From NCBI RefSeq assembly GCF_019665785.1, contig NZ_CP081149.1, positions 682,001 to 746,000 on the forward strand: a DNA stretch of 64,000 bases, given 5' to 3'. The notes below the pieces were generated by a model. The model saw only the letters and a list, made by a program, of their open reading frames with translations, made no database searches and was not told where the DNA came from. The translations under genes were made by a program, and so were the position numbers. Shown in pieces: positions 946 to 63,923 of the stretch (position 1 is its first letter; each line of letters opens with the position of its first letter). Source of the stretch: Deefgea piscis. GTDB taxonomy: Bacteria; Pseudomonadota; Gammaproteobacteria; Burkholderiales; Chitinibacteraceae.

Positions 946-1904
946 TGTCCCGTTTACGTTGCTTTGCGCTGCTGCTATTTTTTATTGCTTCCTCCGTTAT
1001 GGCTTTTCCCTTAGTGATTGTGGTGGAGAGTTATCATCCTGAAAATGATTGGGATAAAGCGTATTTAAATGGTTTACGCAGTAAATTGGATGGCGTTGCA
1101 GAACTGGACTTTATTGCTTTGGATACCAAACGTTTGCCCACTAGCGCGCATTTGGAACAAGCTGATTTGGCTTTTTATGAAATTCAGCAAAAAAAGCCCG
1201 ATTTAGTGATCTTGGGTGATGATGCCGCCTTGGCTCTATTGGGGCCAAGATTGGCTCGAATGAAAATGCCAGTGGTATTTTTAGGCATTAATGCGGATCC
1301 GGCGCAGTATTTTGGCGGTAAATTACCCGAGCATATTACTGGGGTGATAGAGCGGCCGTTGTACCAGCAAAACTTTAATTTGATCCGCGAGTTATTACCG
1401 CATGCCAAGCGCATTTTGGTGTTATTAGATCAAGATCGATCGGCATATTTTTTACAGACGGATATTCAACGTTTAAAACGCAATGATATTGATGTGGTGC
1501 TGGTGAGTAATTATTCGATTTGGCAAAATAAAGTGATGAATGCCAATTTGCAATACGATGCAATCGTAATAGGGACTTATCAAGCCTTAATTGGCGCCGA
1601 TGCCCAGCATGTGAATGCCGATGAAGTGATGGCGTGGACGCGCGCGCACAGTCCGGTGCCCATTTTTGGCTTTTGGGATTTTGCCATTAGTCGGCAGGCG
1701 GCAGCGGGCGGCATGGTGTTATCGGGCTTTGAGCATGGTGCAATGGCAGGCAGCATGGCGCGTTCGATATTAAAAAATCCTCAGCTATCACTGCCGGTAC
1801 GCCAAAGTGACCACGGCCATCTAATATTCAGCCGAACACAGGCGAGCTACTGGAAAATTCAAATTCCCAATAAATTGAGTAAACGAGTGAGTTGGCTGCC
1901 TTAA
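945..1904 (+). CDS. Exported ABC-type substrate-binding protein (319 aa)
   Basis: Begins with a clear signal peptide (charged start, LLLFFIASS core, cleavage near VMA-FP) followed by a two-lobed periplasmic-binding fold of the ABC_sub_bind (PF04392-like) type; the VILGDDAALALLG and MPVVFLGINADP stretches are characteristic of the hinge-flanking lobes. No permease or ATPase gene is adjacent, so it may serve a distant transporter or act as a stand-alone periplasmic sensor, as relatives do when fused to signalling domains. Coupled to the ACT-domain gene by a one-base overlap. The ligand cannot be read from sequence. Confidence 0.7.
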   Translation: MSRLRCFALLLFFIASSVMAFPLVIVVESYHPENDWDKAYLNGLRSKLDGVAELDFIALDTKRLPTSAHLEQADLAFYEIQQKKPDLVILGDDAALALLGPRLARMKMPVVFLGINADPAQYFGGKLPEHITGVIERPLYQQNFNLIRELLPHAKRILVLLDQDRSAYFLQTDIQRLKRNDIDVVLVSNYSIWQNKVMNANLQYDAIVIGTYQALIGADAQHVNADEVMAWTRAHSPVPIFGFWDFAISRQAAAGGMVLSGFEHGAMAGSMARSILKNPQLSLPVRQSDHGHLIFSRTQASYWKIQIPNKLSKRVSWLP

Positions 1905-1923
1905 TTTTAAAACCTTTAAGTAT

Positions 1924-1972
1924 GGGTATGTGAAGATAAGTCTTTTTATTAATGGCTTATCTTAATATACCT
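1924..1972. repeat. 49-bp palindromic element, copy 1
   Basis: Starts GGGTAT and ends ATACCT, exactly 49 bases, with an inner stem AGATAAG/CTTATCT around an AT-rich loop. It sits 19 bases after the stop of the preceding gene, between two convergent genes. Same length, ends and T14-A15 as the other core copies in the window. Confidence 0.75.
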
Positions 1973-1988
1973 ATAGATATAAGAGGTT

Positions 1989-2813
1989 TTAATTGCGTGC
2001 AGCCAGCGCGGCATCTGAGGTGACAGTGGCTCGGAGTTGTAGCGGTTTGACGCCAAATTGCTGGCTAAAACGGCTGCTAAAACGGGATGCCGAGGCATAA
2101 CCACATTGCTGCGCGATATCGCCAATGCTGTGCGAGGTGGTTTGTATCATCCCCAATGCGGTATTTAAGCGAACTTGTTCGAGCAAACGCCGAAATGAAT
2201 TTCCTTCTTGCATCAATTGTCGGCGCAATGTCGACGCGCCTAAATGCAATTGCTGCGCCATCTGCTCAACCGTCCACGGCTTACTGGTATGTAGCAATAA
2301 TAATTGCTGTACGCGCTGGCTAATTGAATCGCCTTTATCGATAAAAATCGCCTGTCCTTGCCCCGCCATGGTCAAAGCCAGCAATAAGCCCACCGCACGA
2401 TGGTGCTGCAATGCCGTCGGTTCGACGTCGCTGGCTTGAAATAACTGATCCCATTGCATGGCGACCCATGGATCAAGCTTGACGCAAAGCTGTGCGGGTT
2501 GCTGCAGTGCCGCCCGCAAAACTTCGGGGTATTGCTGCCGACAGCGTGCAATCAGCTGTGGATCGAGCAATACCACATCACAGGCATAGCCAGAATGATC
2601 GGCTTGATTGCGCAGCGTCACTTCTAGCCCGGCGGGCGCAATCACCAAATCACCCACACGGGCAATGAAATGCTGTTCGCCAATAAAGAGGTGTTTTTCA
2701 CCTTGGCGCACGCGCATCAGCATAGGCTGCAAGCAGCAAATTTGGCGCAAAGACTGCGTTGACTTGGCTTGGATTTGGCTCAATTTGATTTGTTTGGTGT
2801 GTAATGCAGGCAT
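1989..2813 (-). CDS. AraC-family transcriptional regulator (274 aa)
   Basis: The C-terminal 100 residues carry the two helix-turn-helix motifs of AraC/XylS regulators (QMAQQLHLGASTLRRQL and IGDIAQQCGYASASRFSSRF, followed by the FG.KP.QLR signature). The N-terminal 150 residues look like a cupin-type effector domain. It stands alone, convergent with the binding-protein gene, with a YbhB-like gene upstream on the same strand. Effector and targets are unknown. The ribosome site is weak, so the start is less certain than the family. Confidence 0.85.
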   Translation of the reverse strand: MPALHTKQIKLSQIQAKSTQSLRQICCLQPMLMRVRQGEKHLFIGEQHFIARVGDLVIAPAGLEVTLRNQADHSGYACDVVLLDPQLIARCRQQYPEVLRAALQQPAQLCVKLDPWVAMQWDQLFQASDVEPTALQHHRAVGLLLALTMAGQGQAIFIDKGDSISQRVQQLLLLHTSKPWTVEQMAQQLHLGASTLRRQLMQEGNSFRRLLEQVRLNTALGMIQTTSHSIGDIAQQCGYASASRFSSRFSQQFGVKPLQLRATVTSDAALAARN

Positions 2814-2855
2814 TGCCGCTGGCTCTTATGTGCTGGCGGCAGTTTGCCGCGTGGA

Positions 2856-3389
2856 TTATTTGCTGCGCTGATAGGTGGCAGTGAGTTGTGCTTTAGCCAG
2901 TTGATGTTGGTTGAGCATAAAGCCCACTAAGGCACCGCTGGCATTGGCATCGACTGGGAGTTTTTCAGTATCTAAAGCCCAAACGGTATAAATATAGCGA
3001 TGCGCTTTATCGCCAATCGGTGGGCAAGCGCCGCCGTAGCCAGCTTGGCCAAAGTCGGTGCGCGTTTCAAGTGCGCCGGCTGGTACTGCACCGCTGGCAA
3101 TCGATTGCACTTGGGCCGGAATATTCACTACACTCCAATGCCACCAGCCACTACCGGTTGGTGCGTCTGGATCAAACACGGTGATGGCAAAGCTTTTGGT
3201 GCCGGCTGGAGCGTTTTTCCAGCTGAGTTGCGGTGAAATATTGCTGCCACTGCAACCAAAACCATTGAATTCTTGCTTTTTAGTCATTGGCGCATTGGCT
3301 TGGATGTCTTGGCTGGTGAGTTGGAACTCAGCGGCAAAGGCGGTGTGCAGACTAAGGGCCATAAATAAAGCGCTGCTAATGAGTTTCAT
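2856..3389 (-). CDS. YbhB/YbcL family protein, Raf-kinase-inhibitor-like (177 aa)
   Basis: Signal peptide (MKLISSALFMALSLHTAFA, cleavage before AEF) followed by a phosphatidylethanolamine-binding-protein fold. Family marks are SPQLSWKNAPAGTKSFAI, the FDPDAP motif that lines the ligand pocket, GWWHWSVVNIP and GGACPP. The bacterial members are exported proteins of unclear biochemical role. The start is supported by GGAGAG six bases upstream. Confidence 0.88.
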   Translation of the reverse strand: MKLISSALFMALSLHTAFAAEFQLTSQDIQANAPMTKKQEFNGFGCSGSNISPQLSWKNAPAGTKSFAITVFDPDAPTGSGWWHWSVVNIPAQVQSIASGAVPAGALETRTDFGQAGYGGACPPIGDKAHRYIYTVWALDTEKLPVDANASGALVGFMLNQHQLAKAQLTATYQRSK

Positions 3390-3533
3390 GATTGCTCTCC
3401 GTGTTGTTGAAAAGCCATCATACGCAGCATCTTAAAGAGCGATGGTTCAGAAAAGCTCATATTTTATCCTTAAACGCTCTATTTTGTGATTTATTTATTA
3501 TTTTTGAGCGTTTATGCGTTTTGGCTGATGGAT

Positions 3534-4823
3534 TTAAATGCCGAGTTGGTCGCGCAAGGCGTAATACCAAGCGCCCAATGCCGTGAGCGGTACGCGCAAT
3601 AAGCGCCCGCCGGGAAAAGGGTGGTGCGGGAGTTTGGCAAAAGCATCAAATTGGCTGTTATGCCCTTGTATGGCTTGCGCCAATAATCGCCCAGCCAAAT
3701 GCGTATAAGTCACGCCGTGGCCGCTACAGCCTTGTGAGTAATACAGATTGCTGCCCAGTCGCCCCATTTGCGGTAAGCGCGATAGTGTTAATGAGAAATT
3801 CCCAGTCCACGCATAGTCGATTTGAATATGGCTGAGCTGAGGAAAAGTCTGGCGTAAATTCGGCACAATCACTGCCTCAATATGCGCTAAATCGCGTGCG
3901 CCATAGGTAACGCCTCCGCCATAAATTAAGCGGCGATCGGCACTTAAACGATAATAATCGAGCAAAAAATTACAATCTTCGACGCAGTAATTGCTGGGAA
4001 TTAGTTGCTCAGCCAGTGCGCCCAGTGGCTCAGTAGCGACGACTTGGCTGCCACAAGGCATGGTTTTGGCGGAGAGCTCTGGGACTAAATCGCCCAAATA
4101 GGCATTGCAAGCGACAATCACAAACTGGCAACGTACCGAGCCCTGCGCCGTTTGCACCACCGGGCGAGTGCCACGTTGAATCTGCGTGACCGCCGATTGC
4201 TCAAAAATTTGCCCGCCCAAAGATTCAAATGCCGCAGCTTCGCCGAGCGCCAGATTGAGTGGGTGGATATGCCCGGCACTATGGTCAACTAAGCCGCCGA
4301 CATAGCGCTCACTGGCAACGGCTTGGCCAATTGCCGCTTGGTCTAGCATTTCTAGCTGGGTATGGCCGTAGCGCTCCCAGAGTGCCTTTTGTGCAGCCAG
4401 ATGCCCCAGTTGTTTGTTGCTGAGCGCCGCAAACAGTCCGCCATTTTTAAGGTCGCAATCGATTTGATAATGCGCGATTCTTTGGCGAATAATTTGATTG
4501 CCGGTAAACGCCATTGCGCCCAAAGCGTCGGCAGTAGCTTTGCCATATTGCCGTTCAATCACATCCATATCGCGCGAATACGAATTCACAATTTGCCCAC
4601 CATTGCGCCCCGAAGCCCCCCAAGCGATTTGTGCTTGCTCCAAAATAACCACGTTATAACCGGCCTCAGCTAAAAACAGACCGGCAGATAATCCGGTAAA
4701 TCCGGCACCAATAATGCAGATATCGACGTCTAAATCGCGATTGAGCTCCGGCCTTGCTGGTTGTGGGTGGGCGCTGGCGGCGTAATAAGAGGCGGCGTGA
4801 CTGATTTTTTGCATTTTTTTCAT
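3534..4823 (-). CDS. puuB: Gamma-glutamylputrescine oxidase, FAD-dependent (429 aa)
   Basis: FAD-binding oxidoreductase of the DAO family. The dinucleotide-binding motif DICIIGAGFTGLSAGLFLA lies at about residues 34-52, followed by the GASGRNGGQ motif typical of PuuB/OrdL. It would oxidise gamma-glutamylputrescine to gamma-glutamyl-aminobutyraldehyde, releasing ammonia and peroxide. The context supports this: puuA, puuD and puuC homologues follow within 8 kb. A chemoreceptor gene separates it from puuA. No good ribosome site precedes either of the two close ATG codons, so the exact start is uncertain by three codons. Confidence 0.85.
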   Translation of the reverse strand: MKKMQKISHAASYYAASAHPQPARPELNRDLDVDICIIGAGFTGLSAGLFLAEAGYNVVILEQAQIAWGASGRNGGQIVNSYSRDMDVIERQYGKATADALGAMAFTGNQIIRQRIAHYQIDCDLKNGGLFAALSNKQLGHLAAQKALWERYGHTQLEMLDQAAIGQAVASERYVGGLVDHSAGHIHPLNLALGEAAAFESLGGQIFEQSAVTQIQRGTRPVVQTAQGSVRCQFVIVACNAYLGDLVPELSAKTMPCGSQVVATEPLGALAEQLIPSNYCVEDCNFLLDYYRLSADRRLIYGGGVTYGARDLAHIEAVIVPNLRQTFPQLSHIQIDYAWTGNFSLTLSRLPQMGRLGSNLYYSQGCSGHGVTYTHLAGRLLAQAIQGHNSQFDAFAKLPHHPFPGGRLLRVPLTALGAWYYALRDQLGI

Positions 4824-4911
4824 TCAATAAGTTGAGGTGGTGAAAATGACGACATGGCGAGATAGGCAAAGGAATTTGGCTTTTTAACTTTGGATGTTAA
4901 AAACACAGGCT

Positions 4912-6429
4912 TTATTGCGGCTCTCGGACATGAAAAAATCGAATCAATTCTTGTAACTGTACGGCTTGAGTATTCATTTCATCAGCCGTTGCAGCCAGTT
5001 CTTCTGATGCTGCCGCGTTGATTTGCGTTGCGGCGGATAGTTGATCTACCGTAAGGCTAATTTCATTTATGCTCTGGGTTTGCATATTCGTGGCACTACT
5101 GATGGCTTGTATCAGCTCGGCAGTGTCTATCGTTGCGGGTTTGATTTTACTGAGCAATTTACCGGCCTGTGTGGATTGCAGCACACTGCTATCAGTAATA
5201 TCGCTGATTTCTTTGGCGGCGATTTGGCTTCGCTCCGCTAGCTTACGTACCTCAGAGGCGACAACGGCAAAGCCTTTGCCATGATTGCCGGCTCTGGCTG
5301 CTTCAATTGCCGCATTGAGCGCCAATATATTGGTTTGATAGGCGATATCGTCAATGATGTGGATTTTGGTTGCAACTTGCTCCATGGCGAGCGCTGTTTT
5401 TCTGACGGCCTCTTCACCAGTTGTTGCATCGTTTGATGATTGTTGGGCGATGTCCGTGCAGGTGACCGCATTTGTAGCGCAAAGGGTGAGTGAGTGATTA
5501 ATTTCTTTGATTGCCAATCGTGTTTCTTCAACGTTAGTGACTTCGGAAATCGTATTTTGACTTAATGCTTCAGCTGCATCCGCGATTTGCTCGGCTGAAT
5601 TAACCAGCGTGGCAGAATTATTACGAATATTGTGTAAAACGTGATTGAGTTTTTCGGTCATTTGTTGCAAGTGATACAAAATACTCGATTGATCATTCTT
5701 TTTTAAATGAATTGACACTGCCAAATTGCCAGAAGCAATCTCTCGGACAATCACTGAGGCAACTCTTGGCTCACTGCCAAGTAAATTAAATAAAGAATTC
5801 ATAACATATAGTGCAATGATAGTGATCACAATCAGCAAGCCAAAGCTGATGATTAACAGTCCAAGTAATGATTTATTGACCAATGTTTTGGCTTGATCTT
5901 CTAATTGTTGCTGTTGTTGTTTGAGAATCGGTACCAGTTCATCCACAGCTAAACGATGTTGCTTATAGAGTTGATCTAATCGCGTTTTTGCCGCAGCAAT
6001 TTTTACTTGATTTTTGCTTTCTAGAGCTGGAATTAAAACTTGTTCGGCTTCTTTATAAAAGGCATCAGCAGGCTGAAAAATAGATTGAGTTAGGCTATTG
6101 AGTATATTGGGTGGTAGATTACTTTCTTTCCAGTGTGCTTGTCCTCGATAGAATTCATTTTTAATTGTTTTAAATCGATTGATTAGCTCGGTGGATGGAG
6201 GGCTAGTTTCACTTAATTGGTGTGACAGTAAATAGGCCTCAATGATGTATTGTGGTGGCGGCAAAATGTCGGCGATTAAATTGCTGTTGTCGTCAATTTT
6301 ATGGTAAAGATCTCCATTAATCATTACTGTACGCATGGTCTGATAGGACCAAATTGAGAGTAATAATAAACTGGTCAAAACAGCAGCAAGCAATATGTAA
6401 AATTGCTGTTTAAAGGGAAGATTTTTCAT
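4912..6429 (-). CDS. Methyl-accepting chemotaxis protein (505 aa)
   Basis: Membrane chemoreceptor. A transmembrane helix at residues 9-30 is followed by a periplasmic helical sensor domain containing the [11 protein letters not shown] motif seen in one large MCP subfamily, a second membrane helix near residues 180-202, and a long cytoplasmic coiled coil with the conserved hairpin tip ([19 protein letters not shown], then [18 protein letters not shown]). The start at 6429 is chosen over an upstream in-frame codon because AAGGAT precedes it. Its place inside the putrescine locus suggests sensing of putrescine or a related amine; that is inference from position only. Confidence 0.9.
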
Positions 6430-6598
6430 TGGTTTATCCTTGCTCGTTATTCCGTGGATAGCCCTTAAATGGTTTGGGTTTGTAGCACAAACCATTGTAA
6501 AATTAATTTAGTCACTGTATTTTTAATATATTCCATGTCAATTTATATGTACTCTGTGTAATTAGCGTTAATCATCTATTTTTAATAAATTTAAATAT

Positions 6599-7927
6599 TC
6601 AAACATGCAGTAGCAAATGTTTACGCTCCCACGGGCTGATCACTTTGGCGTATTCGATATATTCAGATTGTTTGACGGCGCAATACGCTTTGATGAATTT
6701 TTCACCGAGCACCTCGGCAATCGGCGCGCATTCGGCCAATTGGTTGATCGCACCTTCTAGCTCTCTGGCAAAGGCAAATGGCAGGCTATATGCGTCGCCC
6801 GTGAGCGGCTCGGTCGGTTCGAGTTGTTCGACAATACCCAAATAGGCGCAGGCCAAAGTCGCGGCCAAAGCCAAGTAGGGATTGCAATCGACCCCCGGAA
6901 CGCGGTTTTCAATTCGCCGTGCTGCAGGGGTGGAATACGGAATGCGAATGCCGCAAGTGCGGTTATCAAAACCCCATTGCACATTGATCGGGGCGGCGTA
7001 ATAGCGAGTGAGACGGCGATAGCTATTCACAAACGGCGCAAAGAGCGAAATCACCGCCGGAAAGTATTTTTGCATGCCAGCGATCGATTGATAAAACACC
7101 GTGCTCGGTTGCCCGTCGTCATTGGAGTAAATATTTTTACCGCTGGTTTTATCGACCACACTCATATGAATATGCATGGCCGAGCCGGGCTCGTGCTCCA
7201 TCGGTTTGGCCATAAAGGTGGCATACATTTGATGGCGAATCGCCGCTTCGCGTACGGTGCGTTTAAATAAAAAAATCTGATCAGCGAGTTCTAAGGCGTT
7301 GCCATGCAAGAAATTGATCTCCATTTGGCAAGCGCCGACTTCGTGAATCAAGGTGTCGATTTGCAAACCTTGCGCATCGCAATAGTCATACACGTCTTCA
7401 AATAAATCATCATATTCATTCACCGCATCAATCGAATACGCTTTGCGTCCGGTTTCGGGCCGGCCAGTTCGTCCTAGCGGCGGTTGTAAGGGCAGGTCGG
7501 GGTCGCGATTAATATCGACCAGATAAAACTCCATTTCGGGGGCAACCACTGGCTCCCAGCCGCGATCTTCGTAGAGCTTTAATACCCGCCGCAACACATA
7601 GCGGGGTGATAGCTCAACGGGTGTGCCGTCAAAATGAAAACAATCATGAATCACTTGCGCCACCGGGTCTTTGGCCCAAGGCACTAGGCGAATGGTATTC
7701 GGATCGGGAATCAGCACCATATCGGGATCGGTACTGGGGGTAATGCCGTCGGCGTATTCACCGGTTACGGTTTGCACCAGCACCACTTGCGGCAAGCGCA
7801 TGCCGTCGTCTTCGTTAAACTTCTCGCGCGGAACGATTTTGCCGCGAGCAATCCCAGTAAAGTCTGGGGTCACGCATTCCACTTCGGTGATTCGCCGCTC
7901 GCGCAGCCATTCGCTAATTAAGCTCAT
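6599..7927 (-). CDS. puuA: Gamma-glutamylputrescine synthetase, glutamine-synthetase family (442 aa)
   Basis: Type I glutamine-synthetase-like fold: N-terminal beta-grasp (SEWLRERRITEVECV), then the catalytic barrel with EMEFYLVD, HEVGACQMEINF, PGSAMHIHMS and NRTCGIRIP motifs carrying the metal- and ATP-binding residues. PuuA ligates glutamate to putrescine as the first step of the Puu pathway; the nearby puuB, puuD and puuC homologues support this over ordinary glutamine synthesis. Three consecutive ATGs occur at the start; the last (7927) has GAAGGA six bases upstream and is preferred. Followed by puuD after about 60 bases on the upstream side of the transcript. Confidence 0.88.
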   Translation of the reverse strand: MSLISEWLRERRITEVECVTPDFTGIARGKIVPREKFNEDDGMRLPQVVLVQTVTGEYADGITPSTDPDMVLIPDPNTIRLVPWAKDPVAQVIHDCFHFDGTPVELSPRYVLRRVLKLYEDRGWEPVVAPEMEFYLVDINRDPDLPLQPPLGRTGRPETGRKAYSIDAVNEYDDLFEDVYDYCDAQGLQIDTLIHEVGACQMEINFLHGNALELADQIFLFKRTVREAAIRHQMYATFMAKPMEHEPGSAMHIHMSVVDKTSGKNIYSNDDGQPSTVFYQSIAGMQKYFPAVISLFAPFVNSYRRLTRYYAAPINVQWGFDNRTCGIRIPYSTPAARRIENRVPGVDCNPYLALAATLACAYLGIVEQLEPTEPLTGDAYSLPFAFARELEGAINQLAECAPIAEVLGEKFIKAYCAVKQSEYIEYAKVISPWERKHLLLHV

Positions 7928-7984
7928 CATCATTCCTTCAAACAAAAGTGCTGCGCTTGGGTGGGGGCGGATTATCTTGCCCGT

Positions 7985-8734
7985 TTAAGCGAAATGTTTA
8001 TGTTGGTAATGCGCTTGGCAGGCGGCAGCAAAAGCGTTAAAGATCGCCATCGACAGTGGGTTGTCGGCGTATTGCCATTCCGGATGCCACTGCACCGCCA
8101 GATTAAAACTTGGCGCGTCGGCCAAGCGAAACGCTTCGATTAAACCGTCTGGCGCAATCGCCTCGGCGACTAAACCGTGCCCTAATTGTTTGACACCTTG
8201 TTGATGCAGCGAGTTGACCATCGCCTGTTGCTGTCCATATAGGCGGTGAAGTAAGCCGTTAGGCACCAGCTCGATCGGGTGGGCGAAACCATACATGGTG
8301 TCGATATCCCCTTCGGGTTCGCGGTGATCGAGCATTTGATCTAGCGTTTGAATTTGTTGATGCAGGCTGCCACCGAAAGCGACATTGATTTCTTGCGCCC
8401 CACGGCATAAGCCCAAAATCGGGATGTGGGCCGCAATGGCGGCGCGAATAAAGGGCAGCGTGGTGGCGTCGCGCGCTGCGTCATTAAAATCATCGGCTAA
8501 GGGCGTTCCGCCATAATGCTCGGGTTCAATATTGCTATTGCTACCGGTAAACAGCAGCCCGTCGACCAACGCTAGAATTTGCGCGTGATCACGAGCGCCT
8601 AAGGCGGGAATCAACAGCGGTAGCCCACCGGTTCCGGCAATGGCGGCGAGGTATTTTTCTCCGACTAAATGATAAAAATGGCCACTTTCTAGGCGCCAGC
8701 GGCAGCAAACAATACCAATGATGGGTAGACCCAT
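7985..8734 (-). CDS. puuD: Gamma-glutamyl-GABA hydrolase, class I amidotransferase (249 aa)
   Basis: Peptidase C26-type class I glutamine amidotransferase. The nucleophile elbow PILGLCRGAQEINVAFGG holds the catalytic cysteine and the C-terminal VQWHPEWQ holds the histidine and glutamate of the triad. In the Puu pathway it releases GABA from gamma-glutamyl-GABA. Start supported by AAAGAGA. It lies 16 bases after ald and shortly before puuA, so ald-puuD-puuA are probably one transcript. Confidence 0.88.
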   Translation of the reverse strand: MGLPIIGIVCCRWRLESGHFYHLVGEKYLAAIAGTGGLPLLIPALGARDHAQILALVDGLLFTGSNSNIEPEHYGGTPLADDFNDAARDATTLPFIRAAIAAHIPILGLCRGAQEINVAFGGSLHQQIQTLDQMLDHREPEGDIDTMYGFAHPIELVPNGLLHRLYGQQQAMVNSLHQQGVKQLGHGLVAEAIAPDGLIEAFRLADAPSFNLAVQWHPEWQYADNPLSMAIFNAFAAACQAHYQHKHFA

Positions 8735-8750
8735 AACGATCTCTTTATAT

Positions 8751-11621: not shown

Positions 11622-11680
11622 AACAAAGATTTTGGCAATTGAGCCACTGTATTGCGTAGCTTTGTATATAAAATAATAAT

Positions 11681-11738
11681 GGGTATTTAACGCTAGAGCT
11701 TATTTTAAAAAGCCTGGCGTTAAATACCCTTTTGTTTT
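11681..11738 (+). repeat. 49-bp palindromic element, copy 2, followed by a T-rich run
   Basis: The 49-base element spans 11681-11729 (GGGTAT...ATACCC) with a strong stem GGGTATTTAACGC/GCGTTAAATACCC. Here a TTTTGTTTTG tract follows, so this copy could act as the Rho-independent terminator of puuC, which ends 59 bases upstream. Confidence 0.8.
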
Positions 11739-11838
11739 GTGTGTGGCTGCTGGCGTTGATTGCTGCTGCTTTTCAAATTGCAGCTTTTTTTAGTATAAAA
11801 TCGTTGCCGATGAATCCCCATCGAGCGCACACCTCATT

Positions 11839-12511: not shown

Positions 12512-13231
12512 ATGAGTACCCGAGTATTATTTGTTGAAGACGACGCTGAATTGGCCGAATTGATTGGCGGTTTTTTGCGCTCGTTTGAGTTTACCGTCGA
12601 AGTACTCGGCGATGGTTTAGGGGTGAATGACAATGTGAAAGCCAATCCCCCTGATTTGATTTTGCTCGATATTATGTTGCCCGGCAAAGATGGTTTGACC
12701 ATTTGCCGCGAACTGCGTGAATTTTATACTGGGCCGATTGTGCTGCTCACCTCGCTCAATAGCGATATGAATCAGATTTTGGGCTTTGAAATCGGCGCGA
12801 CCGATTACGTGGTCAAAACCACGCCGCCTTCAGTGCTATTAGCGCGGATTCGTTCCCATTTACGCCACGCCGGTAGTGGCAGTTTGTTGGCGGCGGTGCC
12901 AGTGCAAGATCAATCACGGCTTAACTTTGGTCGTTTACAAATTGATGCGCGCAATCGCAGCGCGGTGTATCGCGGCGAGCAAATGGGTTTGTCGAGCAGT
13001 GATTTTGATTTGCTGTGGGAATTGGCCAGCCACGCCGGCGAGATTTTAAGCCGTGATCATTTGCTGAAAAAACTGCGCGGTATTGAATACGATGGCCTTG
13101 ATCGCAGTATGGATGTGGCGATTTCGCGCTTACGTAAAAAACTCGACGATGATCCGATTGACCCCCGCAAAATCAAAACCATCCGAAACAAAGGGTATTT
13201 GTTTGCGAGTGATATCTGGCAAGACGAGTAA
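12512..13231 (+). CDS. rstA: OmpR/PhoB-family response regulator, RstA-like (239 aa)
   Basis: Receiver domain at residues 1-120 with acidic pocket (FVEDDAEL), phospho-acceptor Asp near residue 53 in LILLDIMLPGKDG, the LLTSLN switch and the YVVKTTPP lysine; then a winged-helix DNA-binding domain (residues 135-235) ending in IRNKGYLFA. The KTTPP variant and the partner kinase point to the RstA subgroup. Start supported by AAGGA. The stop lies inside a 49-bp GGGTAT...ATACCC palindrome. In E. coli RstA is part of the PhoQ/acid response; see the repeat protein downstream of the kinase. Confidence 0.85.
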   Translation: MSTRVLFVEDDAELAELIGGFLRSFEFTVEVLGDGLGVNDNVKANPPDLILLDIMLPGKDGLTICRELREFYTGPIVLLTSLNSDMNQILGFEIGATDYVVKTTPPSVLLARIRSHLRHAGSGSLLAAVPVQDQSRLNFGRLQIDARNRSAVYRGEQMGLSSSDFDLLWELASHAGEILSRDHLLKKLRGIEYDGLDRSMDVAISRLRKKLDDDPIDPRKIKTIRNKGYLFASDIWQDE

Positions 13232-13241
13232 TCATATACCC
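13193..13241. repeat. 49-bp palindromic element, copy overlapping the rstA stop
   Basis: Exact GGGTAT...ATACCC ends at 49-base spacing. The left half is conserved RstA coding sequence (KGYLFA), so that half may match by chance; the inner stem is poor. A second short inverted repeat, TACCCTC/GAGGGTA at 13237-13267, follows. Confidence 0.4.
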
Positions 13242-14739: not shown

Positions 14740-14758
14740 GCAATGTAATTTAACTACG

Positions 14759-16619: not shown

Positions 16620-16668
16620 AGGTATATAGCGGTAAGCTTTGTTAAATATATTTAACGGCCGTATACCC
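16620..16668. repeat. 49-bp palindromic element, copy 3
   Basis: AGGTAT...ATACCC at 49 bases, 45 bases after the protease stop. Contains a perfect inner palindrome GTTAAATATATTTAAC (16641-16656). Confidence 0.75.
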
Positions 16669-23922: not shown

Positions 23923-23971
23923 AGGTATTGCTCAGTATCTTTTTGTGAATAACGGCTGTAGTCAGATACCC
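23923..23971. repeat. 49-bp palindromic element, copy 4
   Basis: AGGTAT...ATACCC at 49 bases, 16 bases beyond the stop of the minus-strand gene at 23988. Short inner stem CAG/CTG. Confidence 0.7.
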
Positions 23972-32065: not shown

Positions 32066-32942
32066 CACCAATAATCCTTATGGTCATTGAAATCGAGTGC
32101 GTTTCACCGCTCGCCAAGTCATACATCGCTGCGCCATGATCTTGATTGATGGCATTGTTGCTATGGCTGACGGGTTCAAAAGCGAGGAAGTTTTTCTCTC
32201 TTGAAGGCACAAAAACGATGGCATTACCGGCATCAGGTGATGTGATTTCGACGTGTAGTTTTTGTGCTGGCCAGTTAATTTGCGCTGAGCCATCCCAGCC
32301 GAGAAAACAGTTGTCGATTGAATTGGGCTCAACCGGACGTGCTTGTCTGAAATCCCACTGGGGCGGAATCGCTGTGCGTGCCGCGGGCAACATATTGCTG
32401 TCGTTGATTAAGACGCTCTGCGCACAAAATTGCAGTTGGGCTTGATCGGCGTTGGCAAAGTACGGGTGAAATCCGAGCCCAACAGGCACAGCATGTGCGG
32501 CATCATTGAGATAACTCAATTGAATGTGCAGGCTGTTTTCTGTCAGTGAAAACACTTGTTTTGCACGATATGGCCAAGGCCAATGGGCGGTTTGATCACC
32601 TGGCGCGTCGTGGTTTAGCTGCAAAACGATTTGCTGCGTTGACGTTTCAGCAACGTGCCAAACCGATTGCCAGCCATTGCCATGAATTGAGTGCGGATGA
32701 TCACCAAAGTTTTTTGCCAGCGTGTAGTGCTGATCAGCAAATGTAAATTGCCCGTTCTCAATCCGATTTGAATAGGGTATGAGAGGGAAAGATCCGCATT
32801 GATTGGCTTGCGAGGCAATACCTAGCGGCATTGACCGCAAGATATCAACGCCTTTGTATTTCAAAGCGGCAATTGCGCCACCCAATTGGGGGACTAATAT
32901 CAACTGCAAATCACCGCATTGTTTACTTATTAGCGTCAGCAT
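32058..32942 (-). CDS. Aldose 1-epimerase (294 aa)
   Basis: Galactose-mutarotase fold. NRIENGQFTF and the DDHPHSIHGNGW-like HGNGW segment carry a catalytic His; VGLGFHPYFA carries the second His, and the C-terminal half ends in FVPSREKNFLAFEPVSH. Equilibrates the anomers of a free sugar for the 1-dehydrogenase. ATG shares its A with the TGA of the upstream aldolase gene. The presence of a mutarotase shows that the operon starts from a free aldose rather than only from a sugar acid. Confidence 0.88.
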   Translation of the reverse strand: MLTLISKQCGDLQLILVPQLGGAIAALKYKGVDILRSMPLGIASQANQCGSFPLIPYSNRIENGQFTFADQHYTLAKNFGDHPHSIHGNGWQSVWHVAETSTQQIVLQLNHDAPGDQTAHWPWPYRAKQVFSLTENSLHIQLSYLNDAAHAVPVGLGFHPYFANADQAQLQFCAQSVLINDSNMLPAARTAIPPQWDFRQARPVEPNSIDNCFLGWDGSAQINWPAQKLHVEITSPDAGNAIVFVPSREKNFLAFEPVSHSNNAINQDHGAAMYDLASGETHSISMTIRIIGDE

Positions 32943-40258: not shown

Positions 40259-40307
40259 AGGTATGTGACTGCAGGCTTTTATTTGTTTGGAGTGGCAGGC
40301 AATACTA
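40259..40307. repeat. 49-bp palindromic element, divergent copy
   Basis: AGGTAT...ATACTA at 49 bases with a CTGC/GCAG inner stem; 133 bases after ahpF, beyond its terminator. Right end degenerate. Confidence 0.5.
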
Positions 40308-41870: not shown

Positions 41871-42071
41871 AAGTAAAAAGCTTGGTCAAAAAGATGCCAC
41901 TTTACCTGTAGTAGGGGGGAGTTGTTTAGAGAAAAATCATTAATTGATGTTTCGCTTGATTGCGTATATGGGATTTTATGGGTATTAGGAATCGATCTGA
42001 GCTGATACCATCTTGTCCCCTTGGGGGTGAAGATTGGTTTTGCTCCCCGTTTTATGTTCAAAGGATTTAGC

Positions 42072-43619: not shown

Positions 43620-43668
43620 GGGTATTGCCTGCTATAGCTTGTAGATAATGACCTGCAATCAAATACAT
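43620..43668. repeat. 49-bp palindromic element, divergent copy
   Basis: GGGTAT...ATACAT at 49 bases, 84 bases after lysP, with imperfect inner pairing (TTGC/GCAA). Right end degenerate. Confidence 0.55.
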
Positions 43669-45231: not shown

Positions 45232-45280
45232 CCGTATTTGATTACAGCTTTTGATCTAAAAGTTTTTGCTAGCGATACCC
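45232..45280. repeat. Marginal copy of the 49-bp element
   Basis: CCGTAT...ATACCC at 49 bases, 65 bases beyond the 3' end of the acyltransferase gene. The left end differs at two bases; could be chance. Confidence 0.3.
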
Positions 45281-46304: not shown

Positions 46305-47471
46305 TTACAGCTCGCCAGAGCGATCTCGACCGCGTAAACCGGGGGCGGTATCGCCAGTAAGGCCTTTAGAAAAAGCGATGACTTTAAAAATCTCGCCCAT
46401 TTCGGCGTGTGTAGTGAGTTTTTGAATCGCTGCGACGCTTTTCATATAGTCGATGCTGGTGGTGGGTAGTTGCTGGGCAAAGTCGAGAATGCCTGCGTCG
46501 AGCAAATAGCTGGCTTGAGTGGTATACCCCTCTAAGCTAAGTCCACTAGCTTCTGCAGCGGTATACATTGCAGTAAAATCAACGTGGCAGGTAATGTCAG
46601 TGAGTCCAGGATAAAAGAATGGATCGTGAACGGTGTGGTGGCGATAATGGCCAATCAGCGTACCCATGCTGCGTTCAGGGTGGTAATACTCGCGCTGCGG
46701 GAACCCATAATCAATCAGTAAGATCATACCGCGCTGCAAGCTTTGCCCGAGTGCGGTGATAAAGCCTTGCGCTTCAAGGTGAATTTCGCTGGTGTAGTTC
46801 GGAATCGTTGGCAAAGGCTCGCAAGCTGCGGCCAATTGCGCAGATTGAATCGGCCGATTTTGCATGGCAAAACCTTGCTCGCTGAGGATAACGCCGCGTT
46901 GTTGCCATTGCCCATCGGCCAGTTGCACCAGCTCGCATGGCATGGCGTCGAGCACTTCATTACCGAGCATCACGCCGACAAAATGATCGGGCAGCGCATC
47001 GAGCCACTGCACGCGATCGATTAAATGTGGTACTAAAGTAAGCAAAGTTTGACGCTGACGCTCGCGTAATTGGCCAGAAAGCTCCAAGATGGCATAGTGT
47101 ACGGGTAAGGCGTTGCGGCGCTCGAGTTCTTGCAAAATTTGCGCCGCCAGTTGGCCGGTGCCAGCGCCGACTTCCAAAACACTGGCGGACTCTTGACCGA
47201 TTTCATCGAGAACATGCGCCAACGTGGCAGCCACCGTCGCACCAAAAAAAGGCGATATTTCTGGCGCGGTGACAAAGTCGCCAGCGCCGCCAAATTTGGT
47301 TGCGCCGCCGCTGTAATAACCTAGCGCTGGGGTGTACATCGCCAAGCGCATAAAGTCGGCAAAAGAAATCCAGCCGCCGTGGGCGTTAATCGATTCGGCA
47401 ATATGCTGACACAAGGCTTGGCTGGCTTCGAGCGCATCGCTCGATGGCAAGGGTAATTGCAATTGATTCAT
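46305..47471 (-). CDS. SAM-dependent methyltransferase, MidA/NDUFAF7 family (388 aa)
   Basis: PF02636-type methyltransferase: FADFMRLAMYTPALGYYSGG, DFVTAPEISPFFGA, SAM-binding LEVGAGTGQLA and LGNEVLDAMPCELV. The mitochondrial relative methylates an arginine of a complex I subunit; bacterial targets are mostly unknown. ATG 47471 gives the usual family length; upstream in-frame codons would add about 43 residues of poor quality. The gene is divergent from the flavoprotein gene at 47623. Confidence 0.9.
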   Translation of the reverse strand: MNQLQLPLPSSDALEASQALCQHIAESINAHGGWISFADFMRLAMYTPALGYYSGGATKFGGAGDFVTAPEISPFFGATVAATLAHVLDEIGQESASVLEVGAGTGQLAAQILQELERRNALPVHYAILELSGQLRERQRQTLLTLVPHLIDRVQWLDALPDHFVGVMLGNEVLDAMPCELVQLADGQWQQRGVILSEQGFAMQNRPIQSAQLAAACEPLPTIPNYTSEIHLEAQGFITALGQSLQRGMILLIDYGFPQREYYHPERSMGTLIGHYRHHTVHDPFFYPGLTDITCHVDFTAMYTAAEASGLSLEGYTTQASYLLDAGILDFAQQLPTTSIDYMKSVAAIQKLTTHAEMGEIFKVIAFSKGLTGDTAPGLRGRDRSGEL

Positions 47472-48541: not shown

Positions 48542-48590
48542 GGGTATATTTATGTAGAGTCTGAATCATAAAGCCTACATGAATATACCC
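48542..48590. repeat. 49-bp palindromic element, copy 5
   Basis: GGGTAT...ATACCC at 49 bases with inner stem ATGTAG/CTACAT, 13 bases after the flavoprotein stop. A further ATATACCC at 48769-48776 may be the right end of a truncated copy. Confidence 0.78.
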
Positions 48591-54282: not shown

Positions 54283-55869
54283 ATGCCCGATTTCAATCGC
54301 TCATCGAGTGAGCATCTATGGCAATCGCTATCCCTATTTAATATTTTCCGGCTATTAATCGTGATTGGCTTGATGGTGGGGGCGTTTTTACTCACCGGTG
54401 AGAGCTTGCTTGAGCGCGATCATTTTTGGGTGGTGATTTGGATTTTAGGGTGTTACACCCTGTGCGGGATTATTTTTGCCTTTGGCATCGCCAAAAAATG
54501 GCCGCGTTTTGACGTGCAATTGTCGATTCATGTGTTGATTGATGTGATTTTTATTGTGGCGTTGATGCATCTCGGTGGCGGAATTAAAAGCGGATTTGGG
54601 ATTTTATTATTGCCGTATTTAGCTGGCGCCGGTTTGATTGCGCGTGGGCGGATGACGATCTTTCATGCGGCGATTGCCAGCATTGCTTTATTGGCTGAAA
54701 TGCTGTGGAGCGCGATACACGGTGATTTAGAATCAACAATACCGATGTCGACGGTATTTCTCTGTATCGCTTCATTTGCGGTGGCTTGGCTGGCATACCG
54801 GCTCTCTCGGTATGCTGAAGAAAACCGAGAGCTAGCTGAACAACGTAGTGTCGATATTGCGAATTTAGGTCAGCTCAATACTCGGATTTTACAAGACGTA
54901 TCTGACGGTGTTTTGGTAGTGGATAGTTGCAATTTAATTCAGCAATTTAATGAGCAAGCCGTTCGAGTCACCGGCGTTCGGACTGATTTAGGTAGCCCAT
55001 TGGCGGCGGATTTTCCTGAATTGGCAGCGCCTTTACACCGCTGGCGCGAGTTTCCAGAGCTGGGCAGTAGTGAATTAGTGCAAACAGCAGGTGGGCGTAA
55101 TACGCTGCGGGCGCGGTTTGTGTCTTTAACGCATGATTCGAGCGGGAATGTGCTGATTTATCTCGAAGATATGGCGCGCTTACGTCGTGAGTCACAGCAA
55201 TTAAAACTCGCCGCGCTCGGGCGTTTAACGGCCAATCTGGCGCATGAGATTCGCAATCCTTTAGGTGCAATTAGCCATGCGGCTGAGCTGATGCGTGAAG
55301 AGGCGAATGATGACCCCTTATTACAAAAATTGACGCGAATTATTAATGACAACAGCCTGCGCCTTGAGCGCATGGTGAAAGACGTTTTAGAGCTCAATCG
55401 TCGTGATCGAGTTGAGCGTATTGATATTCACTTGGCCGATTGGCTGGCCAATTTTGTGGAAGAATTTCGGCAACAAGAGAAAATACCGGTGCAGCTCACC
55501 ATCATTTGCCCACCGGAGGCGACGGTGCGGTTTGATGTGGGGCATTTGCATCAAGTGCTGTGGAATTTATCGCGTAATGGTTGGCGCTATTGCTTAAAGC
55601 AAGATCATAGCCTGCGTTTTACGGTGAGTGTATTTCGCTCTGGCTGGATGCTCAGTGTGATTAACGATGGACCTAGGGTGCCGAGCGACGCGCAGAGCCA
55701 GCTGTTTGAGCCTTTTTTTACTACTGAAAGTAAAGGCACGGGTTTGGGTTTATATATTGCGCGGGAAATTTGCGCAGCCAATGCCGCTTTACTAGAGTAC
55801 CAATCCCCGCCAGAGAGCGGTGCTTGTTTTCGAATTTTATTTGGATATACCGATGGCGAAAAAATCTAA
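54283..55869 (+). CDS. pilS: Sensor histidine kinase PilS (528 aa)
   Basis: Six N-terminal transmembrane helices (residues about 20-185), a PAS-like segment (DVSDGVLVVDSCNLIQQFNE), dimerisation domain with phospho-acceptor His near residue 319 in LAHEIRNPLGAISHAAELM, and an ATPase domain (NDGPRVP, FEPFFTTESKGTGLGLYI). In PilS-PilR it senses pilin levels in the membrane and controls pilA through sigma-54. The start is 54283 because the frame upstream runs through the rppH terminator. Overlaps pilR by 17 bases. Confidence 0.9.
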   Translation: MPDFNRSSSEHLWQSLSLFNIFRLLIVIGLMVGAFLLTGESLLERDHFWVVIWILGCYTLCGIIFAFGIAKKWPRFDVQLSIHVLIDVIFIVALMHLGGGIKSGFGILLLPYLAGAGLIARGRMTIFHAAIASIALLAEMLWSAIHGDLESTIPMSTVFLCIASFAVAWLAYRLSRYAEENRELAEQRSVDIANLGQLNTRILQDVSDGVLVVDSCNLIQQFNEQAVRVTGVRTDLGSPLAADFPELAAPLHRWREFPELGSSELVQTAGGRNTLRARFVSLTHDSSGNVLIYLEDMARLRRESQQLKLAALGRLTANLAHEIRNPLGAISHAAELMREEANDDPLLQKLTRIINDNSLRLERMVKDVLELNRRDRVERIDIHLADWLANFVEEFRQQEKIPVQLTIICPPEATVRFDVGHLHQVLWNLSRNGWRYCLKQDHSLRFTVSVFRSGWMLSVINDGPRVPSDAQSQLFEPFFTTESKGTGLGLYIAREICAANAALLEYQSPPESGACFRILFGYTDGEKI

Positions 55870-57962: not shown

Positions 57963-59855
57963 ATGTCGACTTCTCAAGCGCAGGATCCAAAAAAGCTAGC
58001 CGGACTAATCGTTGGTGCGATTGGTGTGGTCTATGGCGATATTGGTACTAGCCCGCTGTACACTCTGAAAGAATGCTTTAACGGCCATGTGGCTCTTGAT
58101 TTAAATCCAGCGAATATTTTAGGGGTTTTATCGCTGATTTTTTGGAGCCTGATGATCGTCGTTTCGACCAAATACATCATGTTTATTATGCGTGCGGATA
58201 ATCGAGGCGAAGGTGGTATTTTGGCTTTGATGGCCTTGGCGGCGCGTAATGCCACACCGGGTTCTCGCAAGGCCATGTGGATTACCATTATTGGTCTATT
58301 TGGCGCCGCTTTGTTTTATGGCGATTCGATTATTACCCCGGCGATTTCTGTGCTTTCGGCATTAGAAGGGATTAGCATTGTTTCGCACACCTTTGATCCT
58401 TATATTATTCCGATTGCCATTGTGGTGATGGTGGTGCTGTTTGGGATTCAAGCACGCGGTACGGCCAGTATGGGCAAGTTATTTGGCCCAATTACCATAG
58501 CTTGGTTTTTGGCATTGGCGGGCTTAGGCATTGCCCAAATTATTCAAGCGCCTGAAGTGTTAAAAGCGCTTAACCCCTTGTATGCGATTGAATTTTTTAT
58601 CTCTAGTCCAAAAATTGCGTTTATTTTGCTTGGTGCAGTGGTGTTGGCTTTGACCGGGGCTGAGGCTTTATATGCCGATATGGGCCACTTTGGTCGTCCG
58701 GCGATTCGCTATGCGTGGTTTGGTTTGGTATTGCCCGCCTTGATGCTCAATTATTTAGGGCAGGGCGCGCTATTGTTGACCACCCCCGAAGCGATTAAAA
58801 ATCCATTTTATATGATGGCGCCGGCGTGGATGGTGATGCCGCTGGTGGTATTGGCCACTTGTGCGTCGATTATTGCTTCGCAAGCGGTGATTTCTGGGGC
58901 GTATTCGGTCACTAGCCAAGCGATTCAGCTCGGCTTTGTACCAAGAATGGATATTCAGCATACGTCTGAGCGTGAAATTGGTCAGATTTATATGCCGGGG
59001 ATTAATTGGTTCTTGTTAGCCTCGGTGATTTTATTGGTGATTGGTTTTAAAACATCGAGTAATTTGGCCGCCGCGTATGGTTTTGCCGTGACGTGCACCA
59101 TGGTGATGACCACTTTACTGGCGTTTATGGTCTTGGGTCGTGGTTTGGCTGGTTGGAAAAAATATGGCTTATACGCGATGTTAAGCCTATTTTTAGTCGT
59201 CGATTTGGCCTTGTTTGCCTCAAACTCGCTCAAAATCCATGAGGGCGGCTGGTTCCCATTGGTGATTGGTTTGGTGGCCTTTATCTTGATGACGACTTGG
59301 AAGCGGGGTCGTAAGATGTTGTCGGCTAAATTGCTTGAAGGTGAAATGCCATTAAGCGGCTTTGTTGAAAGCCTTGAAGCGCACCCACCGCAGCGTGTCG
59401 AAGGGATTTCAATCTTTATGACCGCCAATACTGACACGGTGCCGCATGCTTTATTGCATAATTTAAAACACAATAAAGTGCTGCACGAGCAAGTGGTGTT
59501 CTTGACGGTGCAAACCAACGATATTCCTTATGTACCACTTAAAGAGCGAGTCACAGTGCGGCGATTGGGGGAAAGTTTTTACCAAATTGTGGCAACGTTT
59601 GGCTTTAAAGAAGAGCCCAATATTCCTGCAGTATTGTTGCAAGTAACACAGCTGCAGCCAGAATTGGTGTTTGATGAAATGAATACCTCGTTCTTCTTGT
59701 CGCGTGAAACGATTGTTGAAGCGAAATATCCATCAATGAGCTGGTGGCGTCGCCGCTTGTTTAGTTTGATGAGTCGCAATGCAACGCGGGTTACCAACTT
59801 CTTTAAAATCCCACCTAACCGTGTGGTTGAAATGGGGATGCAGGTAGAGCTATAG
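57963..59855 (+). CDS. kup: Kup-type potassium uptake protein (630 aa)
   Basis: K+/H+ symporter with twelve membrane helices and a cytoplasmic C-terminal domain. GVVYGDIGTSPLYTLKECF is the family signature; FYGDSIITPAISVLSA and YADMGHFGRPAIRY also match. Start at 57963 gives the usual length. A TATAAT-like box (57924-57929) lies 34 bases upstream, suggesting its own promoter after ampD. The stop codon overlaps the first bases of a 49-bp palindrome. Confidence 0.95.
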   Translation: MSTSQAQDPKKLAGLIVGAIGVVYGDIGTSPLYTLKECFNGHVALDLNPANILGVLSLIFWSLMIVVSTKYIMFIMRADNRGEGGILALMALAARNATPGSRKAMWITIIGLFGAALFYGDSIITPAISVLSALEGISIVSHTFDPYIIPIAIVVMVVLFGIQARGTASMGKLFGPITIAWFLALAGLGIAQIIQAPEVLKALNPLYAIEFFISSPKIAFILLGAVVLALTGAEALYADMGHFGRPAIRYAWFGLVLPALMLNYLGQGALLLTTPEAIKNPFYMMAPAWMVMPLVVLATCASIIASQAVISGAYSVTSQAIQLGFVPRMDIQHTSEREIGQIYMPGINWFLLASVILLVIGFKTSSNLAAAYGFAVTCTMVMTTLLAFMVLGRGLAGWKKYGLYAMLSLFLVVDLALFASNSLKIHEGGWFPLVIGLVAFILMTTWKRGRKMLSAKLLEGEMPLSGFVESLEAHPPQRVEGISIFMTANTDTVPHALLHNLKHNKVLHEQVVFLTVQTNDIPYVPLKERVTVRRLGESFYQIVATFGFKEEPNIPAVLLQVTQLQPELVFDEMNTSFFLSRETIVEAKYPSMSWWRRRLFSLMSRNATRVTNFFKIPPNRVVEMGMQVEL

Positions 59856-59902
59856 GTATATGACTCTAAGCATTATTAGTTAAGGGTTAGCGCCCTATAC
59901 AT
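59854..59902. repeat. 49-bp palindromic element, divergent copy
   Basis: AGGTAT...ATACAT at 49 bases with inner stem CTAA/TTAG. It begins inside the kup stop codon and is followed at once by a terminator. Confidence 0.55.
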
Positions 59903-59930: not shown

Positions 59931-60549
59931 ATAGCTGTTTCAGTTGGGTAATACAGCGATCGGCTGCAGGGTGATTTTTATTACCATGGCGCAACCAAAT
60001 CGTTTGCATCCCTAATTTTTTGGCGGTGATCAGATTGTCGATACTGTCTTCAACCATGATGCAGTCGCTGGCTTTGAGTTTAAATTGGCGTAGCATTTGG
60101 TAATAAGCCTTGGGTATAGGCTTGGGGGTAAGATTGAGCGTATCGATGGCTGCTATACCTATGAAATATCGCTCAATATCGAGCGCCGCGAGCATGGCTC
60201 TGGCGTAGGCAATGGGGCCATTGGTAAATACAATCTTGTTGCCATTGAGTCTGGCCAGTGTGGATTTAAGCTGCGGCATCGGATGCACTTCACTCAGTAG
60301 CTGAGGTAAAGGATGGCAAGCCGCTAAAAAATGATGTGGGTTTAGATGCGTATGATGGCGAATCAAGCCCAATAAAGTCGCGCCATAGCGCCGCCAATAA
60401 TCTTGGCGTAGCTGATTGGCGGCCGATTGCTGCAGTTGCAATTCATTTTGTAGCCAAGCCGTCATTGCCGAATCGATCACCGGAAATGCATGCTGGTTGG
60501 CATGATGCAGCGTATTGTCGAGATCAAAAATCCAAGTAGGTTGGGGCAT
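59929..60549 (-). CDS. HAD-family pyrimidine 5'-nucleotidase-like hydrolase (206 aa)
   Basis: HAD phosphatase: nucleophile motif WIFDLDNTLHHA at the N-terminus, motif II IVFTNGP, and a conserved lysine plus EDSIDNL acid motif near residue 165. SDT1/YjjG-type proteins of this length dephosphorylate pyrimidine nucleotides; PGP-like roles are also possible. Convergent with kup. Confidence 0.85.
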   Translation of the reverse strand: MPQPTWIFDLDNTLHHANQHAFPVIDSAMTAWLQNELQLQQSAANQLRQDYWRRYGATLLGLIRHHTHLNPHHFLAACHPLPQLLSEVHPMPQLKSTLARLNGNKIVFTNGPIAYARAMLAALDIERYFIGIAAIDTLNLTPKPIPKAYYQMLRQFKLKASDCIMVEDSIDNLITAKKLGMQTIWLRHGNKNHPAADRCITQLKQL

Positions 60550-62845: not shown

Positions 62846-63923
62846 TAAATGGTCAGTGACACTACTTGCCGCGATGGTCGTTTTAGCCGGTTGCAAATCA
62901 GAACAAAAACCGGTCGAAGAAATTCGCCCGGTGCGCACCATGGTGGTGGGTGGAGCCTTACCTGCTGCAGCTGAGGTGTATAGCGGCGAGGTGAAAGCGC
63001 AGCATGAAGTGCCGTTGGGATTTCGCATTCCCGGCAAAATTATTTCGCGCTCAGTGAGTGTGGGCGATATGGTGAAAAAAGGTCAGGTGTTAGCGCAACT
63101 GGATGCCGGCGATGTGGCGTTGAACGCCACGGCTGCGCGCGCGGCTTTATCTTCTGCGCAGGCGCAGTTAGCACAAGCCAAACTCGATTATCAGCGCTCA
63201 CAAGATTTACACGCACAGAACTTTGTTAGCCAAGCCGAGGTAGATAAACGGCAAACGGCGCTGATTTCAGCGCAAAAACTCACTGAGCAAGCCAAGGCGC
63301 AAGTGGATTTGGCGAATAATCAGGCGAGTTACACTCAACTCACTGCCGATGGCGATGGCGTGATTACGCAAACCTTGGCTGAACCGGGCGCAGTGGTTTC
63401 TGCGGGACAATCGGTACTGATGTTGGCCAAAGCTGGGCAGTATGAGGCAGTGATTGATGTGCCAGAAAATCGCGTTCAAGCGTGGCAGCCAGGGCAAAAA
63501 GTGGCCGTGCAACTGTGGGCCGATGCCAATCGAGAGTTGGTTGGCACGGTGAGCGAAGTCGCCCCTGCGGCCGATAGTAAAACCCGAACGTTTCGCGTGA
63601 AGGTCGCGCTACCGGAAAAAAATTCAGCTGCACTGGGTATGACGATACAGGTAAGTCAGGTATTCGCTTCTAAAGAGATACCTAATGAAATATCTGTACC
63701 GATGTCGGCAATCTTTGGCAAAGAGCAAATGATGCGAGTGTGGTTAGTGGATGCTAAAAACACCGTGCATAGCCAAGCCATTACCGTGCTGGGTCATCAA
63801 GGCCAGCAAGTTAGAATTCAAGGGATTCCTGCTAAATCGGTGGTGGTGACTGCTGGTGTGCATTTATTGCGTGAAGGGCAAAAAATCAAAATCTTGCCAG
63901 CAGCGCAAGGAGCACAGCAATGA
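62838..63923 (+). CDS. RND efflux periplasmic adaptor (membrane fusion) lipoprotein (361 aa)
   Basis: Lipobox VLAGC near residue 17, then a biotinyl-lipoyl-like half (GFRIPGKIISRSVSVGDMVKKGQVLAQLD), an alpha-hairpin (residues about 90-145, QAQLAQAKLDYQRSQDLHAQ), the second lipoyl half (TADGDGVITQTLAEPGAVVS) and a beta-barrel domain. Links the inner-membrane pump to an outer-membrane channel. Start is 62838 or three codons earlier. Stop overlaps the permease start (ATGA). Confidence 0.92.
   Translation: MLNKWSVTLLAAMVVLAGCKSEQKPVEEIRPVRTMVVGGALPAAAEVYSGEVKAQHEVPLGFRIPGKIISRSVSVGDMVKKGQVLAQLDAGDVALNATAARAALSSAQAQLAQAKLDYQRSQDLHAQNFVSQAEVDKRQTALISAQKLTEQAKAQVDLANNQASYTQLTADGDGVITQTLAEPGAVVSAGQSVLMLAKAGQYEAVIDVPENRVQAWQPGQKVAVQLWADANRELVGTVSEVAPAADSKTRTFRVKVALPEKNSAALGMTIQVSQVFASKEIPNEISVPMSAIFGKEQMMRVWLVDAKNTVHSQAITVLGHQGQQVRIQGIPAKSVVVTAGVHLLREGQKIKILPAAQGAQQ

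Follow-up and report, generated by a model that had tools for sequence, protein, structure and literature searches.

A 47-bp split palindrome with two-fold symmetry, whose necessary core is GTAT-N37-ATAC, marks the chromosome of Deefgea piscis and is restricted to one lineage of the Neisseriales. Our leading though tentative interpretation is that these 47-bp units are DNA recognition sites, most likely acting as a self-DNA (uptake-like) signal. We see roughly even chances that the split mark, optionally joined by a third half-site 8-9 bp outside it, represents a new class in the Chitinibacteraceae that is read by a putative oligomeric protein and has spread over several hundred positions via point mutation under selection or drive. 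To our knowledge few sequences accumulate and persist by hundreds across bacterial chromosomes, and those that do have exposed natural transformation, RecBCD control and chromosome segregation. As three genera have the sites and other genera of the family do not, both the reading protein and the reason for hundreds of sites become testable.

Definition and anatomy of the site

In the window, the whole 64-kb stretch of D. piscis DNA that was analysed, the strict site GGTAT-N37-ATACC occurs 11 times against 0.07 expected at a gap of 37, with the same pair of words found once each at the other gaps listed, and the relaxed core GTAT-N37-ATAC occurs 18 times against 0.62 expected. Over the complete chromosome (3,575 kb) there are 382 strict sites, a low density of about one per 9 kb and yet far above the 3 obtained with the reversed pattern as a control; the initial annotation of this DNA had called for a comparison of the count with shuffled sequence. 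A sample of 41 D. piscis stretches (864 kb) contained 97 strict pairs at gap 37, with five each at the runner-up gaps of 38 and 50 and a median of one per gap. The sequence was as described at every position given by that annotation, and the fixed-length family it had reported is real and larger than first described.

The ends had been given as RGGTAT...ATACCY. Their fixed spacing stands, however only GTAT and ATAC are needed and the outer G/C is partly dispensable, with replacement of the outer G by A, T or C giving 29, 29 and 15 pairs respectively where 1.0-1.5 were expected. The twelve one-mismatch forms within GTAT add up to 33 where 17.6 were expected, compared with 97 intact sites. ATACAT serves as the alternative end in Deefgea (T in 73% of 42). 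Weaker preferences are mirrored between the halves (T at 11, A at 14, C at 17, A/T at 19 and T at 20) and are common to all three genera together with an AT-rich centre. The half-site consensus consists of G-GTAT, five bases, a weak TGNAG and a weak CWTT, with the AT-rich centre between the halves, and the GTAT cores lie 41 bp apart or about four helical turns.

Distribution across genomes

Strict-site counts were 259-453 in Deefgea (7/7 genomes), 376-542 in a second genus (g6, 6/6) and 276 and 298 in a third (g11, 2/2), giving a range of 259-542 for all 15 sampled genomes of the three genera. The other 66 relatives, comprising 28 genomes of the family and 38 of other families, have 0-8. In a wider sample of 399 genomes of the order, members of the three genera are the only ones to stand out, and in one of 397 from the phylum D. 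piscis alone does, the next count being 12 with a control of 11. Of the named contigs compared, those of D. salmonis and relatives are closest to the window, followed by Chitinibacter. Judging from sequence g6 is probably Chitinibacter, and two named Chitinibacter loci of 21 kb each (L087 and L088) contain five and two strict sites; g11 may be Chitinilyticum.

A scan for spaced inverted words ranked GTAT-N37-ATAC first in each of the three genera (48, 50 and 61% GC), the D. piscis sample being one of 84 kb only which contained other repeats. It was not found in five further genera of the family, sampled at 80 kb each, whose signals were different and weaker; the strongest of them was a gapless palindrome, GCTC-GAGC, found 25 times against 3.25 expected in the site-free genus g9.

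Sites in the window

The site at 1925..1971 lies in a convergent gap and is kept in D. salmonis, the sole relative aligned there. Another follows an aldehyde dehydrogenase gene (11682..11728), forms a strong hairpin and is kept in 2/2 relatives, and a third (13194..13240) straddles the stop codon of rstA with its core kept in 3/3 Deefgea; both ends and the exact gap of this site are also found in Chitinibacter tainanensis (L087:9869) though the coding end differs. The site upstream of proA (16621..16667) is kept in D. salmonis at 73% flank identity, that at 23924..23970, 17 bp from the 3' end of ORF 23988-25289 (- strand), is exact in the same species, and that at 48543..48589, following the gene at 47620-48528 (+ strand), forms a hairpin and is kept in 2/2 relatives. 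Relaxed sites are present at 40260..40306 (right end ATACT), at 41963..42009 upstream of the gene at 42021-43535 (+ strand; left end CGTAT), at 43621..43667 (right end ATACA), at 45233..45279 (left end CGTAT) and at the stop of a K+ transporter gene (59855..59901, right end ATACA, kept in 3/4 relatives).

The initial annotation had placed every copy at or shortly after a gene's 3' end, which does not hold, as six window sites lie in genes. These are found in genes for an AraC-family regulator (2528..2574 within 1989-2813, - strand; a site absent from that annotation and kept in 2/2 relatives), an aldose 1-epimerase (32776..32822), a Methyltransf_28 protein (46521..46567, relaxed with right end ATACA, kept in 3/3), a histidine-kinase-like protein (54753..54799, kept in 4/4), a HAD hydrolase (60113..60159, kept in 4/4 at flank identities of 75-94%) and an RND periplasmic adaptor (63636..63682, kept in 3/4).

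Other repeats are present in the window. An IS110-family transposase gene occupies 43923-44961 and its 3' part (44501-44961) recurs in at least 5 further D. piscis places at 95-100% identity. Near the 48543 site there is a perfect 8-bp tandem repeat, GACGCAGA x 5.2, at 48615-48656 (region 48602-48672) and an interspersed repeat of about 165 bp (48777-48940) which has many copies in D. piscis and in genomes G001 and G005 and some in G002.

Genomic location

The 97 strict sites in the 864-kb sample divide into 52 intergenic, 10 partial and 35 wholly genic ones, where random placement would yield 11.7%, 6.1% and 82.2%, these shares being approximate as the genes were called with a crude caller (coding fraction 0.85); an earlier and sparser gene set gave 59, 9 and 29. 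Frequency is thus lower inside genes than outside and yet far above chance, with 35 genic sites against about 0.8 expected (0.94 per gap multiplied by the 82% genic share). Of the 52 intergenic sites 51 were scored for gap orientation. They avoid divergent gaps (4 sites vs 12.3 expected, p 0.005), while 13 lie in convergent gaps where 8.3 were expected (p 0.09) and 34 in tandem gaps compared with 30.4, with 20 of those 34 nearer to the upstream 3' end, barely above half.

The relaxed core was present in 39 of 40 stretches round the D. piscis chromosome. Judged by eye from counts per 20 kb in these 40 stretches there is no ori/ter trend and the palindromic core has no polarity, on which grounds a terminus or strand bias of the matS/KOPS type was rejected. 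Regular spacing found no significant support, as coefficients of variation did not differ significantly from random for the first 79 D. piscis sites (CV 0.92, p 0.29) or for the first 49 sites each of genomes G036 and G011 (0.84 and 0.95; p 0.14 and 0.47). Close neighbours are nevertheless scarce among the first 79 D. piscis sites (2 within 1 kb, 8.1 expected), and the variance/mean of the counts per 20 kb (0.73 and 0.70; p 0.11 and 0.08) points to slight under-dispersion.

The sole stretch free of GTAT-N37-ATAC (L057, positions 1,350,001-1,370,000) carries genes of a Tn7-like transposon. Site counts are unrelated to codon-typical coverage over the 40 stretches (rho 0.10, p 0.54) and this island is therefore a single example. 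Its genes encode TnsA-like, TniQ/TnsD and TniB proteins and the C-terminus of a Mu-type transposase, with an adjoining gene resembling Wadjet JetD (25.4 bits, cut-off 22).

Conservation and origin of sites

In order to compare the sites with relatives we used 26 loci of 10 relatives, of which eight (all but G004 and G005) gave plus-strand alignments longer than 400 bp and seven covered any site. The GTAT/ATAC halves of sites were intact in 59/62 comparisons as against 405/666 for other GTAT/ATAC words of the window (Fisher p 3e-9), although such comparisons are few, share ancestry and are not independent. Where flanks were less than 80% identical the figures were 18/20 for site halves and 52/151 for control words (Fisher p 2e-6). 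Whole sites were kept in 28 of 31 comparisons. Of the three losses, that of 23924 in D. salmonis is an alignment-gap artefact, L083:20528 being an exact site. In the locus-wise comparison that includes the relaxed window sites, overlapping loci of one genome are counted repeatedly.

Two intragenic gains were examined for insertion as opposed to substitution. One is the Chitinibacter site L087:14809, which is counted as a single gain with its orthologue L088:15312, and the other is L086:20307 of D. rivuli; both sit in open frames of 214-223 codons. As site-free homologous genes align without gaps across these sites, intragenic sites can arise by substitution rather than insertion; the wider alignments of L087:14809 and L088:15312 to the window do have gaps, which fall outside the site. 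In the few loci aligned no clean insertion or excision of 47-49 bp was found among the alignments listed.

A third half-site

In g6 and g11 genomes a third half-site is present as ATAC 8 or 9 bases outside GTAT, on 24/116 and 47/210 sides in two Chitinibacter-type genomes and on 14/52 sides in a g11 genome. It tends to replace a missing outer G in these two genera. In the first Chitinibacter-type genome it accompanies 17/45 sides with a non-G outer base and 7/71 with G (p 7e-4), in the second 26/55 and 21/155 (p 1e-6) and in the g11 genome 13/17 and 1/35 (p 5e-8). It never occurs on both sides of the same site, few such cases being expected anyway. In Deefgea it is found on 7/378 sides with no link to the outer base (p 0.42). 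Such swapping of weak and auxiliary half-sites would be expected from cooperative protein binding.

Over 160 kb of the g11 genome G016 (L151-L158) the arrangement ATAC-N8-GTAT occurs 14 times against 0.55 expected, often as ATACA-N6-TGTAT (7 vs 0.03), an operator-like dyad that is partly formed by the third half-site.

Hairpin, terminator and mobile-repeat interpretations

The initial annotation had suggested a transcribed hairpin or a small mobile or REP-like unit, with inner stems that differ in sequence and still pair. The stems do pair well in the copies at 1924, 11681 and 48542 and poorly in those at 13193, 16620 and 23923. Covariation of the inner stem is a property of intergenic copies, which show 6.79 interior Watson-Crick pairs of 15 compared with 5.74 +- 0.21 in a half-swapping control (73 sites), an excess that extends to positions 9-39 and 10-38 where base preference is small; it is absent in genic copies, where pairing is near chance (4.67 vs 4.46 +- 0.20 of 15, 79 relaxed-set sites). 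The inner palindromy is thus a secondary property of unconstrained DNA and does not define the site; template-switch correction and hairpin function are its possible sources.

A role at gene ends, as transcribed hairpins or as terminators for both directions, would accord with the intergenic pairing excess, with strong hairpins such as 11681 and with the depletion of divergent gaps and the 13 sites in convergent ones. We consider this improbable, given that over a third of strict sites (35/97) are wholly genic and far above chance there with no excess pairing, and that pairing near 3' ends is only marginally stronger (7.36 vs 6.15, p 0.07). A simple intrinsic terminator with a GC-rich stem and T-run was rejected, in agreement with the initial annotation, as none of the 35 terminator-like matches in 1500-17500 falls on any of the five sites there and 35/97 strict sites are genic. 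A described Rfam RNA family was rejected too, in line with the annotation's remark that it knew of no such family, as a covariance-model scan of the window at the gathering threshold gave no match at the sites and returned only a tRNA and a glycine riboswitch. The riboswitch (RF00504) lies at 67-153 on the - strand with one aptamer match of 45.7 bits.

A small mobile palindrome of REP or MITE type, spread by insertion and then partly eroded, would explain copy numbers in the hundreds, the palindromic consensus and the intergenic preference. This was already disfavoured and we judge it very unlikely, as the core is fixed while interiors diverge, site-free homologues align gaplessly over the site and the few loci aligned hold no clean insertion or excision; a MITE or inserted repeat was rejected on the gapless alignment of the two intragenic gains. 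The Y1 transposase (PF01797) has no match in 5 of the 15 site-bearing genomes (G002, G003, G011, G016 and G038), which carry 259-469 sites, and does match in the 10 others. The REP/RAYT candidate was rejected on this absence and on the 35/97 fully genic sites. REP elements with RAYT are likewise intergenic palindromes at high copy number, whereas the 47-bp site is independent of the Y1 transposase, common in genes, gained by substitution and of fixed length with a variable interior.

A proposed protein-binding site and its possible role

The exact gap of 37, the half-site pattern shared by three genera, conservation, gain by substitution and the link of the third half-site to the outer base all count for a protein site. 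The fixed spacing and symmetry, together with compensation and conservation, would be explained by a protein that reads duplex DNA, and we infer that a two-fold symmetric, sequence-specific assembly would bind the double-stranded 47-bp site with both GTAT cores facing the same side of the helix four turns apart. Intergenic copies would be free to become fuller palindromes and may act secondarily as hairpins.

The role of such a site would most likely resemble that of the DNA uptake sequences known from Neisseriaceae (DUS) and Pasteurellaceae (USS). If DNA carrying the site were preferentially taken up and recombined, this would be a drive able to build hundreds of sites in one lineage, and a self-DNA signal is preferred because this drive explains both that accumulation and the preference for non-coding DNA. 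Restriction to one lineage, intergenic preference, avoidance of divergent gaps, lack of an ori/ter trend by eye, lack of an abundant DUS-like 8- or 10-mer in samples of eight genera, the ComP_DUS-type pilins encoded throughout the family and the site-free 20-kb Tn7-like island were counted for this role. DUS/USS have many genome-wide copies, are lineage-restricted with lineage variants and favour non-coding DNA while also lying within genes, and some intergenic copies can form stem-loops (PMC3630211, PMC1939737). The 47-bp site resembles them in being over-represented genome-wide in one lineage, at high copy number, with a preference for non-coding DNA, presence in genes, variants between lineages and some intergenic copies able to fold into hairpins. 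It differs in being a symmetric split site, less dense and with few mismatched forms, where the core of DUS/USS is contiguous and known uptake sequences are non-palindromic (PMC1939737). We therefore do not file it as a DUS, as the contiguous non-palindromic core word is missing, though it may work like one.

Against an uptake signal stand the palindrome, the low density, a halo of mismatched forms that is small for a mutation-drive balance and the lack of a discriminating pilin, as ComP_DUS-type pilins (PF16732) are found in 43/43 genomes of the family, equally in genera with and without sites. We know of no competence experiment in these genera. A possible alternative, and one nearly as likely as the uptake signal, is that the site binds a nucleoid-associated or chromosome-organising protein peculiar to this lineage, which as a dimer or tetramer would bridge the half-sites, bend the AT-rich centre and form nodes round the chromosome. 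Two-fold symmetry, third half-site compensation in two genera, a sharply defined core for which mismatched forms are few, the long persistence of individual sites and the presence of relaxed-core sites in all but one of the stretches round the chromosome are consistent with such an organiser. Counting against it, no cognate protein was found, one lineage would have had to acquire hundreds of sites through substitution with no obvious drive, spacing is not significantly non-random, no ori/ter pattern is apparent, and genera elsewhere in the family lack the sites. Familiar examples of short DNA motifs maintained across a chromosome are matS, KOPS and Chi, and the 47-bp site is a mark of this kind; it differs from these in having no polarity, no apparent ori/ter pattern and a far longer fixed gap. 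If the self-DNA signal that we prefer is the correct reading, it would be a split, palindromic uptake signal in Neisseriales outside Neisseriaceae.

A literature search gave no description of the GTAT-N37-ATAC site among the publications listed. With 37 variable bases interrupting its core, the site would escape surveys based on word counts. In our own survey, which admitted words with 30 or more copies that occurred in half the stretches, the g6 sample had no 8-mer or 10-mer above three times expectation. The smaller samples taken from other genera had several words that reached three to five times expectation, though none was as abundant as a DUS, and in the D. piscis sample only CAGCACCAGC exceeded three times expectation (35 vs 8.3).
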